25,205 nt of DNA from a virus. The DNA is taken from positions 1 through 25,205 of the IMG/VR virus record IMGVR_UViG_3300024259_000146; one strand, given 5' to 3'. Position numbers and translations under genes: made by a program. Positions 3-25,158 of the stretch are shown one piece after another; positions within the stretch are counted from its first letter, which is position 1, and each line of letters opens with the position of its first letter. The notes beneath the pieces were generated by a model, which worked only from the letters and a program-made list of their open reading frames with translations, was not told the DNA's origin and made no database searches.

Positions 3-1067
3 GCAGGTATTGTCCACAACGTCAGAACGGATGAGCTTATAGGCGGAAACCAACGCTCGGAAGCAATAGAAGGAATTATCAGCGGTATCTTGCAACCCGT
101 TATCGTCAAGGAATATGATGAGCCAACGGAAGCAGGTACGCTTGCAATCGGCTTCTACGAGTGGCACGGTGAACAGTATTCTTACCGCCGCGTGGATTGG
201 GACGAGAAGACGGCAGAGCTGGCTAACTTGATAGCAAACAAAGCGGGCGGGTTTTGGGATTGGGATATTCTAGCGAATGATTTTGAAGTAGAAACGCTTT
301 TTGATGCGGGGTTTAGTGAAGATGAATTACTAGGAAATGATTTTGATTTAGGTCTTGACGAAAGCATGGACGCAGAGCCGCAAATTGACAGGGCAGCCGA
401 GTTGCTAGAAAAATGGGGCGTGAAGCTGGGAGATTTATGGCAATTGGGAACGCATAAATTAATTTGCGGCGATTGCACAGACCCCGCAGTCGTTGAGCGG
501 GTTATGGGTGGGGAGAAGGCGGGCGCGTTTGTAACAGACCCGCCATATAATATCTCAAAGGACACATGGGACACAATCGAGAATTATGTTGACTGGTGCA
601 AAAGTTGGTTTTCAAATATAAAAAAATCTCCTGCTTATATTTTTACAGGCTCTTTGCATAGCGGTTTATGGTGGCAAGTATTACCGCCTAATATGGTGTA
701 TTGCTGGCATAAACCAAACGGACAAGGAAACAATCCTGCACGCGGGACAACAAAATGGGAGCCTATTTTATCGTGGAACACTGTGCAGGATAAGCAAACC
801 GATTTTATAGAGCATAATAACGAATATGGCGAAAAAATAAACACGTTACATCTTACGCCAAAGCCGATTGGGCTTATTGAAAAGATTATAAAAAAAACAG
901 ACGGAATAATTGTTGATTTATTTCTAGGCTCAGGAACAACAATGCTTGCATCACAAAACCTATCCCGCCAATGCCGAGCGGTAGAGATAAGTCCTGAGTA
1001 TTGCAGCGTGATTTTAGAGAGAATGAGCGAAGCGTTCCCCGCTCTCGAAATAAAGCGGATAGAGTAG
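3..1067 (+). CDS. ParB-domain DNA methyltransferase (partial, 5' end outside window)
   Basis: The reading frame is open from base 3, so the gene starts before the window; the TTG at 90 is only an internal codon. The visible N-terminal part (ggNQRSEAIEGI, about bases 36-80) matches the ParB/sulfiredoxin-like domain that precedes phage methylases. After a linker comes a short 'LGTHKLICGD' segment, then catalytic motif IV DPPY (bases 537-548) and, near the C-terminus, the SAM-binding motif FLGSGTT (about 920-940). The order DPPY before FxGxG is the beta class, which methylates adenine N6 or cytosine N4. No restriction nuclease gene is adjacent, so it is probably an orphan methylase that marks phage DNA or blocks host restriction. 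Its place just upstream of the terminase genes is common in siphophages. The target sequence cannot be read from the protein. Confidence 0.88.
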   Translation, partial: AGIVHNVRTDELIGGNQRSEAIEGIISGILQPVIVKEYDEPTEAGTLAIGFYEWHGEQYSYRRVDWDEKTAELANLIANKAGGFWDWDILANDFEVETLFDAGFSEDELLGNDFDLGLDESMDAEPQIDRAAELLEKWGVKLGDLWQLGTHKLICGDCTDPAVVERVMGGEKAGAFVTDPPYNISKDTWDTIENYVDWCKSWFSNIKKSPAYIFTGSLHSGLWWQVLPPNMVYCWHKPNGQGNNPARGTTKWEPILSWNTVQDKQTDFIEHNNEYGEKINTLHLTPKPIGLIEKIIKKTDGIIVDLFLGSGTTMLASQNLSRQCRAVEISPEYCSVILERMSEAFPALEIKRIE

Positions 1068-9741: not shown

Positions 9742-10163
9742 CACCGCCCATTATAAAAACGCCGAGAGGTAAAGTCGTCACCAATAAGAACGGGAAAGCC
9801 GAACTCGTTTGGAATACATCAAATTTCACTGGCGGCGGTAGTGGCAACACAAACAAAAACACATGGCAAGGTCGGTTTACGTCTGCGCAAATGTTTGTCG
9901 ATAGCGAGGTGCTGAGACTATCAGAACGCTATACACCGCTTCTAACAGGCACGTTAATAAAGTCAGGCATATTGGGTACGAAAATCGGTAGCGGTCTCGT
10001 AGAATGGATTGCGCCTTACGCGCGCTGGCAATATTATTCGCCCCGCTCTCCAGGCAGTACAACGGGCGCACTAAGAGGCCCGTTCTGGTTTGAAAGAATG
10101 AAGCAGGCATTCGGTAGAAAGATCATTGCGGGTGCCAAGAGAATTGCAGGAAAAGGAAAATGA
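9738..10163 (+). CDS. Minor capsid protein (Minor_capsid_2 family)
   Basis: This 141-aa protein shows the family's core: RFTSAQMFVDSEVLRLSERY, then TPLLTGTLIKSGI, GSGLVEWIAPYARWQYY and RGPFWFERMKQAF (residues about 40-125). In relatives this is a head-tail joining or tail-completion protein of the HK97 gp10 type. The N-terminal 30 residues (with VVTNKNGKAELVWNTS) are shorter and less conserved. It is linked by ATGA overlaps to the genes on both sides. The C-terminus is basic (KIIAGAKRIAGKGK). Confidence 0.85.
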   Translation: MTPPIIKTPRGKVVTNKNGKAELVWNTSNFTGGGSGNTNKNTWQGRFTSAQMFVDSEVLRLSERYTPLLTGTLIKSGILGTKIGSGLVEWIAPYARWQYYSPRSPGSTTGALRGPFWFERMKQAFGRKIIAGAKRIAGKGK

Positions 10164-23389: not shown

Positions 23390-23420
23390 TATAATGTACT
23401 TATATAGTGGCAATAGCCAC
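23390..23420 (+). promoter_or_regulatory. Promoter and GTGGC leader hairpin before the 23432 gene
   Basis: A TATAAT lies at 23390-23395 with a weak -35. The predicted start near 23402 leads straight into TAGTGGC (23405-23411) and a hairpin GTGGC-AATA-GCCAC (23407-23420). GGAG follows at 23423-23426. The hairpin or its TAGTGGC motif may act as an operator. Confidence 0.45.
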
Positions 23421-23431
23421 GAAGGAGAAAC

Positions 23432-24130
23432 ATGAAGCATCTTGCAACTTGGATCGGGAAATTATTGTTTTGGGCAATGGCAACAGCACTGATTGTTTAT
23501 GCCGCAAGCCGAACATTGGACTTTGTAAACTCTACGCTCGAGGCAGAAGACCAGATTATCGGATATCTGGCTCTCTTCGCTACCACAGGCGGGGCTATTG
23601 CTTGGCTTATGGTGTTCTTGAACAACTCAAAAGGCATTGGACAAAAGGGCATCTCTCTTGTGATGGTCGTCATTGACGTGTTGGGGGAGATCACCCTGTT
23701 TACTGTGGATACACTCATGCGGTCTGGCGAAAAAGGGATGATCGTAACGCTGACGCAAGAAGAAATCAGGGTTACCGTTTTGGGAATGTCTCTTCTGATT
23801 GGTCTCAACATCATTGCTACATTTGCTTATCACATCATGGATTCAGACAATATGGCTGCAATGGAAGACCATTTCTCTGAGTGGCAGATTGACTTAGCTG
23901 TTCAGAAGGCAAAACGAGAGAAAGCAAAAAGCATTGCAGGTGAGATTGCAGAACGCGAGGCCAATGCTTACGCTATCGCTCAAAAAGCAAAAGACCGCAG
24001 CGACAAGGAGCTTCCTGAAAAAACACTCCTTGATACTCTTAGTGAACACTTTGGCAAAAAAGATACGCAGCCATTAATGGCTATGGAAGTTGAAGAAGAA
24101 GAACTTGACCCAAATTCACAGAGCCGCTAA
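23432..24130 (+). CDS. Four-helix membrane protein with coiled-coil tail
   Basis: This 232-aa protein has four predicted membrane helices (residues about 8-30, 42-64, 73-96 and 113-136), with short loops, followed by a soluble, charged C-terminal half rich in Ala, Lys and Glu (about 150-232) that should form a coiled coil (VQKAKREKAKSIAGEIAEREANAYAIAQKAKD). GAAGGAG precedes the ATG by 6 bases. I do not recognise a family; a membrane platform for a cytosolic partner is a guess. It is the first gene of the right-end + strand operon. The TAGTGGC motif in its leader and downstream genes suggests common regulation. Confidence 0.68.
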   Translation: MKHLATWIGKLLFWAMATALIVYAASRTLDFVNSTLEAEDQIIGYLALFATTGGAIAWLMVFLNNSKGIGQKGISLVMVVIDVLGEITLFTVDTLMRSGEKGMIVTLTQEEIRVTVLGMSLLIGLNIIATFAYHIMDSDNMAAMEDHFSEWQIDLAVQKAKREKAKSIAGEIAEREANAYAIAQKAKDRSDKELPEKTLLDTLSEHFGKKDTQPLMAMEVEEEELDPNSQSR

Positions 24131-24141
24131 GCAGAAATTTA

Positions 24142-24402
24142 GTGGCTAATAAAGCCACTAGCGACATAGAAGAAGAGTACAAGAAATGGCTTAGTGGCAA
24201 TGTCTCAGAAAAAAAAGCAATTAGTGGCAATCCTACCGCGTGGAGAGTAGAGCCACAGGGAAAGAATAGAAAGTACTGGCAATTGCGCCGAAGGATAACC
24301 AAAGATGACAAAAGGAAACGAGAAAGTAAATATATCGGGTCATGGGAGCAAGCCAAAGAAATCTACCCCGCAGAGTGCTCTAATTACAGACCCAGAAAAT
24401 AG
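24142..24402 (+). CDS. Small basic protein (86 aa) starting inside a TAGTGGC repeat
   Basis: The start is GTG 24142, which lies inside TTAGTGGC (24139-24146); no strong ribosome binding site precedes it. The protein is MANKATSDIEEEYKKWLSGN at its start, and NPTAWRVEPQGKNRKYWQLRRR with KYIGSWEQAKEIYP at its end. The core resembles small beta-hairpin proteins (DUF6788-like) in phages and bacteria. Two further TAGTGGC copies lie in its N-terminal coding part as LSGN and ISGN. The next frame overlaps its last 98 bases if its long form is used. Confidence 0.55.
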   Translation: MANKATSDIEEEYKKWLSGNVSEKKAISGNPTAWRVEPQGKNRKYWQLRRRITKDDKRKRESKYIGSWEQAKEIYPAECSNYRPRK

Positions 24403-24412
24403 ACCGCTCTTA

Positions 24413-24586
24413 GTGGCTAAGTTACGGGACGACCTAATGGCTCTAAAGAAAGCGGGTTTCTTTGTGTATGAAAGGGCTGGCAGATCGGAACTTATAGATT
24501 CTGTGGAGATAACCATTAGTGCACCTAGAGAAGATAGGTTGCTATACAATAGTGGCTATATCTATAATGGCAAAGAGGTGATATGA
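24413..24586 (+). CDS. Small hypothetical protein (57 aa), GTG start in a TAGTGGC repeat
   Basis: I favour GTG 24413, which sits in TTAGTGGCTAA (24410-24420), giving MAKLRDDLMALKKAGFFVYER at the start and ending GYIYNGKEVI. The longer in-frame ATG at 24305 would overlap the upstream gene by 98 bases. The protein has one helix and a few strands and no recognised domain. GTG starts in the same motif as for the 24142 gene suggest that either is a chance start or the repeat has a role in initiation. Confidence in the start is low. Confidence 0.45.
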   Translation: MAKLRDDLMALKKAGFFVYERAGRSELIDSVEITISAPREDRLLYNSGYIYNGKEVI

Positions 24587-24945
24587 GAAAGATAATTCTT
24601 TTAGTGGCTACGCTTCTGGTAATGGCTTGCGGCGTAACACAGCCACTAACGCAATCGCAACTAGCGCAAAAGCCATTACCAACACTCGTCCAGCGTCCTA
24701 CCGATACGATTCAGATCGTGCCAACGGAGATTGCAAAAGAAATCATCACAGCTACGGAAAACTATAATTTGCGATATAGTGTTGGCGGTGGGCAGTCTCT
24801 TGGCATCTTGTACGCAGGGATGCAAGCTGAGATCATCATCACAGCCACTAATGCTGACGGTAGCGCGTGGGCGTTGGTGCAAACTGTGGAAGAAGACCCG
24901 CTTGATGTTTTGACTGGCTGGGTGAATTTGGGGTGCTGTAGATAA
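24583..24945 (+). CDS. SH3-like lipoprotein (120 aa)
   Basis: This 120-aa protein has a lipoprotein signal (RKIILLVATLLVMAC, lipobox Cys16), a Thr/Gln/Pro-rich linker (residues 17-50), and a bacterial SH3-like domain (about 58-118: NLRYSVGGGQSLGIL, then DGSAWALVQ and GWVNLG). SH3 domains of this kind bind cell-wall peptides. It would be anchored in the outer face of the membrane. In a phage it may be a lysogenic-conversion (superinfection exclusion) or lysis-related lipoprotein; in a host it would be a surface protein. Three TAGTGGC repeats lie within it. Its ATG overlaps the preceding gene by 4 bases (ATGA). Confidence 0.8.
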   Translation: MRKIILLVATLLVMACGVTQPLTQSQLAQKPLPTLVQRPTDTIQIVPTEIAKEIITATENYNLRYSVGGGQSLGILYAGMQAEIIITATNADGSAWALVQTVEEDPLDVLTGWVNLGCCR

Positions 24946-25158
24946 GTGTCTAGCGGTCGCGTTCACCAAAAAGCAACGGTAATCCTTGCGGGGGTATCCG
25001 TTGCTTTTTGCTATCACTATGACTGGACGCAGTGGCACAGTGTTGGTGTGCTGAGTGGGCTAGTGTTGACCCCAGACCTGGATGTGGATCACGGTTCAAT
25101 TTCAAATCACACAGTTCGCTCTATTCCAATTATCGGAAGTTTGTCGGAACTTATCTGA
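24946..25158 (+). CDS. YdjM/DUF2227-like membrane protein, N-terminal part, frame broken
   Basis: From GTG 24946, immediately after the lipoprotein stop, the frame encodes SSGRVHQKATVILAGVSVAF, then GVLSGLVLTPDLDVDHG and RSIPIIGSL before a TGA at 25156. The 'SGR.H...T' and 'G....L.PDLDVD' blocks match the DUF2227/YdjM metal-binding membrane family, which is usually much longer. The + 1 frame from about 25145 reads RNLSDILQFFLIWYKLGLEN to the window end, a plausible continuation, so the gene may be frameshifted (mutation, error, or programmed). A strong hairpin (24968-25009) lies in its first codons. Confidence 0.5.
   Translation: MSSGRVHQKATVILAGVSVAFCYHYDWTQWHSVGVLSGLVLTPDLDVDHGSISNHTVRSIPIIGSLSELI
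24968..25009 (+). terminator. Terminator-like inverted repeat inside the DUF2227-like gene
   Basis: AAAAAGCAACGG (24968-24979) and CCGTTGCTTTTT (24998-25009) form a perfect 12-bp stem that ends in a T-run, with an 18-base loop. It would end the operon after the lipoprotein gene, or affect expression of the gene in which it lies. Confidence 0.6.

Follow-up and report, generated by a model that had tools for sequence, protein, structure and literature searches.

What is a short DNA word doing when it is repeated again and again across several small genes of one phage operon, and which protein reads it? The window (the whole 25,205-base stretch analysed here) is a phage contig with TerL and a major head protein. 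An earlier note on it had reported nine TAGTGGC sites in one cluster, seven of them in a longer form, and two others at 9839 and 23405, and these counts are exact. TAGTGGC is found 11 times in the window, nine of them within 24140-24850 (711 bp), with six on the plus and three on the minus strand; outside the cluster only the copies at 9839 and 23405 are present. All seven copies of the longer form, TTAGTGGC, lie inside the interval that the note had proposed, with none elsewhere in the window.

Layout of the locus

The cluster occupies the first genes of a rightward early operon, which comes after the lysis genes and a block of small leftward genes. Behind a membrane-protein gene, three small genes encode an 86-aa protein (the W-x-E protein), a 93-aa protein and a 120-aa lipoprotein, followed by a 70-aa DUF2227-like fragment. 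The features of the locus are as follows.

23405..23421, plus strand: lone leader site TAGTGGCAATAGCCACG, an inverted pair with a TATAAT-like box on one side and the RBS of the membrane-protein gene on the other
23432..24130, plus strand: multi-pass membrane protein, 232 aa, around four TM segments and a charged tail; opens the rightward operon (from hydropathy and relatives)
24070..24081, no strand: GCCATTAATGGC, in which two opposed TAATGGC variants form a perfect palindrome; 3′ end of the membrane-protein gene
24140..24146, plus strand: TAGTGGC site 1
24142..24402, plus strand: W-x-E protein, 86 aa, basic (net charge +10), with a W-x-E...Y-x-G domain, the proposed binder of the array (from alignments and AlphaFold)
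24154..24160, minus strand: TAGTGGC site 2, inverted relative to site 1
24192..24198, plus strand: TAGTGGC site 3
24222..24228, plus strand: TAGTGGC site 4, the last one 5′ of the domain Trp codon
24305..24586, plus strand: gene of the 93-aa protein, with sites 5 and 6
24411..24417, plus strand: TAGTGGC site 5
24435..24441, plus strand: TAATGGC variant
24550..24556, plus strand: TAGTGGC site 6, within a promoter-like sequence (24539-24568, in its spacer) that precedes the lipoprotein gene
24565..24571, plus strand: TAATGGC variant
24583..24945, plus strand: lipoprotein gene, 120 aa, with sites 7-9
24602..24608, plus strand: TAGTGGC site 7
24620..24626, plus strand: TAATGGC variant, one arm of the 12-nt inverted repeat TGGTAATGGCTT / AAGCCATTACCA
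24642..24648, minus strand: TAGTGGC site 8
24672..24678, minus strand: TAATGGC variant, opposite arm of the 12-nt inverted repeat
24844..24850, minus strand: TAGTGGC site 9
24946..25158, plus strand: DUF2227-like fragment, 70 aa

The W-x-E gene has a GTG start that overlaps site 1, and the Trp codon of its domain is at 24241. The perfect inverted repeat TGGTAATGGCTT / AAGCCATTACCA (24617-24681) falls in the lipoprotein signal region and is interleaved with two TTAGTGGC copies that form an inverted pair. A second perfect inverted repeat, 13 nt long and terminator-like (CAAAAAGCAACGG / CCGTTGCTTTTTG, 24967-25010), lies close to where the DUF2227-like frame begins. Beside the terminase genes, at the other end of the window, one gene joins a ParB-like domain to a DNA methyltransferase (window 3-1067; in full at L133:12081-13232).

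The sites are selected at the DNA level

TAGTGGC is expected 2.2 times per window. Dinucleotide shuffles contained at most 6 copies, and the observed total of 11 was reached in 0 of 100. The reversed control pattern of TTAGTGGC has no match in the window, and among all 7-mers and 8-mers of the window this word shows the strongest clustering. The variant TAATGGC shares the cluster, as 6 of its 12 window copies fall at 24070-24678. Based on this co-clustering, we define the motif as TARTGGCW, with around 15 sites. An EM profile of the region likewise yields TARTGGCW, with nearly zero information outside those positions.

The sites occur in different frames and encode different peptides (LVA, LSG, ISG, NSG, PLT, ATN or ATS), which rules out a protein-driven repeat. 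Synonymous recoding of the four genes with the phage's own codon usage gave a mean of 0.33 sites and a maximum of 3 (n=2000) against the 8 observed, a number reached in 0/2000 recodings. The cluster is therefore under selection at the DNA level, in agreement with the earlier claim that protein coding cannot explain it. Shuffles, recoding and the conservation described below together rule out a chance or compositional artefact. A search for Rfam RNA elements found none.

The KorB operator of plasmid RK2 is TTTAGCSGCTAAA, and KorB sites serve both partition and repression. The site at 24140 (TTTAGTGGCTAAT) resembles this operator; however, the KorB operator is a palindrome of 13 bp, whereas the motif here is asymmetric with a left half that is nearly information-free. 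No KorB-like protein was recognised at the locus. A palindromic or KorB-like operator is ruled out, since the EM profile is one-sided and its information limited to TARTGGCW.

The array accompanies a gene pair in other phages

Around 12 kb on the side away from the cluster is added by three IMG/VR contigs of this species, which share 99% identity from TerS to MCP; none of the three covers the cluster itself. The earlier note had suggested counting the 8-mer in further sequence, and it is not common elsewhere in the species: TTAGTGGC occurs once in the 12 kb added (L133). Outside the cluster, the species has a single TTAGTGGCTA, at L133:3963, within a 183-aa gene immediately upstream of DnaB.

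We compared five lineages, namely the window, L159/L160, L139, L157 and L204/L208, for which the context records are G010 (L159), G009 (L139), G015 (L157) and G019/G020 (L204/L208). Most records are fragments. The near-identical duplicates L159/L160 (G010/G011) and G019/G020 were each counted once. Close relatives of the window's lipoprotein and membrane-protein genes were absent from IMG/VR, and homologues of the module proteins were absent from INPHARED phages and PLSDB plasmids. The membrane protein of L136, a MAG contig, is 55% identical to that of the window, and an alignment of these two proteins reached L159/L160 (25% identical). L159/L160, with 64% GC, carry nine GTAGTGGCA in 145 bp immediately 3′ of the membrane-protein gene. 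They were retrieved by membrane-protein homology without use of the motif and are the sole motif-independent lineage.

L139, L157 and L204/L208 were retrieved by scans for inverted TAGTGGC triplets, L139 independently of the route that led to L159. The shared 7-mer is thus partly a selection effect, as three of the five lineages were obtained through the motif. In each of these three a membrane-protein gene is followed by an array-bearing W-x-E gene, and the array gene of L139 is 73% identical over its C-terminus to that of L159. The earlier note had regarded a lack of conservation in relatives as the result that would speak against the cluster; instead, the position of the array is conserved in other phages, including the motif-independent L159/L160.

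The order of the module in each lineage is a membrane-protein gene, a small and mostly basic W-x-E protein and a protein of 74-93 aa, with a lipoprotein gene closing the module in the window and in G019. The nearest analogue of the window is G019, in which membrane protein, W-x-E protein, small protein and lipoprotein follow one another and 12/12 TTAGTGGC lie within the W-x-E and lipoprotein genes. Its SH3-type lipoprotein, a positional match to the 120-aa lipoprotein of the window, holds seven sites, and the third gene of its module is weakly matched by the window's 93-aa protein (local E 0.003). L159 and G019 have homologous membrane proteins (E 3e-12). The counterparts in G009 and G015 are recognised by position only and show no clear homology to the window's. 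Most TAGTGGC copies are found inside the module (12/13 in G019, 9/12 in G010, 7/8 in G009 and 6/7 in G015), and the flanks are lineage-specific (TTAGTGGCWA, GTTAGTGGCG, TGTAGTGGCAY and TGGTAGTGGCACA).

The placement of the sites within the W-x-E gene is constant. In 5/5 lineages all of them are 5′ of the invariant Trp codon (4/4, 5/5, 9/9, 6/6 and 7/7), and in the W-x-E ORFs of the other lineages they are oriented +----, +++++----, -+-+-+ and ++++-+-. The linker peptides encoded at the sites are VVA/ATT in G009 and G010, GSG/PLP in G015, ATN in G019 and LSG/ISG in the window. The same placement with different peptides shows that selection acts on the DNA and that the protein accommodates it. 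The array is thereby linked to the pair of membrane-protein and W-x-E genes and placed ahead of the W-x-E domain.

In L136, a W-x-E-like frame begins with 0 TARTGGC, at which point the contig ends. This short MAG contig also carries an integrase, an excisionase-like HTH and a lipoprotein next to the 55% identical membrane protein (L136:1030-3419). Its assignment to an Omnitrophota bin is doubtful and it is probably misbinned, since the family is absent from 284 other Omnitrophota genomes.

A number of other repeats were seen in these scans. A first scan of viral contigs for TAGTGGC pairs gave mostly same-strand, codon-phased repeats and was dropped. Mixed-orientation repeats containing TAGTGGC are found in the linkers of wHTH replication-type genes in unrelated phages (L143:1923-2028, L145:8330-8415, L153:4504-4597 and L216:26-190), each with a longer repeat of its own (for example TAGTGGCAGAATCTG or TAGTGGCAAAAATGC); these four were set aside as members because the module is absent. 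L061:3941-4145 was also set aside; its tandem TAGTGGC heptamers, arranged between phage genes in four blocks (two direct, two inverted), resemble a short tandem repeat more than the module. Six TTAGTGGCACC-like sites in mixed orientation lie at the C-terminal end of a primase/helicase-like gene (L022:5964-6216, L205:612-864).

The W-x-E protein as candidate binder

Alignments across the lineages show a W-x-E domain with invariant W, R, Y and G. AlphaFold models the window protein with a helix at the N-terminus, then three strands and one more helix (pLDDT 67), and the L139 domain, modelled with five homologues, has three strands and helices (pLDDT 82, pTM 0.60). Three strands and a helix are reminiscent of the lambda-integrase arm-binding and MBD/AP2 folds, a likeness that we assume to be a lead only. 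The domain gave no significant match in Foldseek searches against PDB and viral models, nor in a PDB sequence search, Pfam, NCBIfam or PHROGs. The membrane and W-x-E proteins match no curated family. As the domain matches no known DNA-binding domain significantly, its DNA binding is something that we infer. The earlier note had listed HTH, RHH, zinc-ribbon and SWIM-like proteins as candidate binders; the 86-aa product of the array-bearing gene appears the likelier one, and we consider it probable that this protein binds the array.

Possible functions of the array

Our preferred reading, to which we give slightly less than an even chance, is that the self-encoded W-x-E array acts with the membrane protein to position phage DNA. 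The basic W-x-E protein (gene 24142-24402) would bind the TARTGGCW sites in its own gene, 5′ of the folded domain, as well as those in adjoining genes of the operon. With this many sites, and with both orientations represented, binding would nucleate a nucleoprotein complex instead of simply covering a single promoter. The membrane protein encoded upstream would then hold this complex, so that the phage genome would be tethered or positioned at the membrane, either in early infection or upon prophage induction. Such a function would resemble that of a partition or DNA-positioning module. Whether the W-x-E protein works with the membrane protein seems to us evenly balanced, and that the purpose is positioning rather than regulation falls a little short of that balance.

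The contig L134, from the same phage species and 99% identical to the window over TerS-MCP, bears on this question. A protein of 274 aa encoded in its early region combines membrane segments with an HTH-like segment at the C-terminus, the latter called by eye (Pfam and PHROGs gave nothing firm for it). Four ACTTGGACA in both orientations lie in the linker DNA of this protein (L134:1126-1205), with one more elsewhere in the contig. The protein apparently joins membrane and DNA-binding functions, with a different binding motif. Its membrane part has no detectable homology to the membrane protein of the window. A DUF2227 gene is found two genes past the apparent fusion, as DUF2227 likewise follows the cassette of the window. 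We prefer positioning over regulation on the basis of this apparent fusion, of the constant membrane-protein neighbour and of the 4/5 lineages that have no site at the operon start.

The main rival, which we regard as rather unlikely, sees the W-x-E protein as a repressor or silencer. Roadblocks along its own early operon would block initiation or elongation and so control the membrane protein and the lipoprotein. The operon opens the early region, and the sites run through it from the leader of the first gene, where the inverted pair at 23405 lies between the TATAAT-like box and the RBS. This pair, together with site 24550 within the spacer of the promoter-like sequence, gives autoregulation real weight. 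Nevertheless, nothing corresponding to the leader site precedes the operon in G009, G010, G015 or G019, which also lack a site at the first promoter; their sites start inside the W-x-E gene. The sites here are short, in both orientations and in one place, unlike L5 stoperators. The stoperators of cluster A mycobacteriophages are similarly short and numerous, serve a single phage-encoded protein and lie for the most part outside promoters, but they are 13-bp sites, predominantly in one orientation relative to transcription and dispersed over the genome (PMC6550527). L5-type stoperators thus fit badly with shorter sites that are 6 plus and 3 minus and confined to the module (PMC6550527).

It is improbable, in our view, that the W-x-E protein is a small replication initiator and the array its iterons inside the initiator gene, as in lambda O. 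Lambda O is a DNA-binding protein with its sites inside its own coding region (PMC3985674), and the W-x-E protein, if it binds the array, would show the same arrangement. In addition, the G019 array directly precedes replication genes, and several unrelated TAGTGGC arrays found by pattern sit in wHTH replication-type genes. However, lambda O is a large initiator with four regular 19-bp iterons (PMC3985674), whereas the spacings here are irregular (14, 38, 30, 189, 139, 52 and 40 in the window), which had already led the earlier note to consider classic iterons a poor fit, and at least two genes share the array in the window as well as in G019. Moreover, separate O-like wHTH genes, each containing repeats of its own, are present in G009 (AATTTCACCACATGAAACCAG, spaced by 21 bp) and G015 (GCGTGTAGGACTGTGCTTCGCA, spaced by 22 bp), so that the TAGTGGC array is a second array in these phages. 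In circular G015 the array is away from the GC-skew extremum; GC skew tracks transcription and located no origin. The iterons of the O-like genes (L199:1955-2074 in G009 and L196:13648-13704 in G015) are likely the true origins of those phages.

Still less probable is that the sites serve an unrelated host or phage protein (a host factor, a restriction or recombination enzyme, or an integrase with arm-type sites) and that the W-x-E gene merely carries them. An integrase does adjoin the membrane-protein gene in L136. Yet each lineage has its own flank, as expected if the sites co-evolve with a phage-encoded partner, and in G009 and G010 the integrase is many kb from the array, which excludes attP arm sites there. 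No integrase was recognised in the window contig.

ParABS partition is unsupported, as a ParA-type ATPase (PF13614) was found in 0/9 records, several of them fragments, compared to 14/14 controls. Among the options raised by the earlier note, an operator or a centromere-like array remains, while L5-type stoperators and an origin are disfavoured and ParABS has no support.

Relation to known systems

The closest precedent for DNA positioning is the AlpA/alpS/AlpC system of the Corynebacterium glutamicum prophage CGP3 (PMC4446434). One early operon of that prophage codes for a small adaptor protein, which binds DNA repeats located at the operon itself, and for a second protein that positions the phage DNA, in CGP3 towards the membrane (PMC4446434). 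Repeats, an early operon and a small basic protein, here a putative binder, are all present in the window. CGP3 differs in that alpS lies in the leader and not in the adaptor coding region, and in that the partner is an actin-like filament rather than a membrane protein. The actin-like NTPase profile PF06406 (ParM) had no match anywhere, a result that is uninformative because the positive controls were equally empty. In type III plasmid partition, TubY is a DNA-binding partition component that also binds membrane, but it does so in a system with an amphipathic tail and a TubZ motor (PMC7762940); no tubulin-like protein was noticed here.

More tentatively, the module may represent a motor-less form of phage DNA anchoring, in which the gene of the binder is itself the array and is paired (in L134 apparently fused) with a multi-pass membrane protein. 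The specificity cassette would be exchanged between phages, and anchoring of this kind would replace cytoskeletal positioning. With the array self-encoded and exchangeable, binding specificity would be readable from the genome alone; accordingly, families with other motifs could be searched for by an array and a membrane-protein neighbour. If this is right, phages of uncultured bacteria carry a compact module, recognisable by sequence, of membrane protein, self-encoded array and binder. It would give a testable account of how DNA reaches the membrane in phages that have no actin- or tubulin-like filaments.
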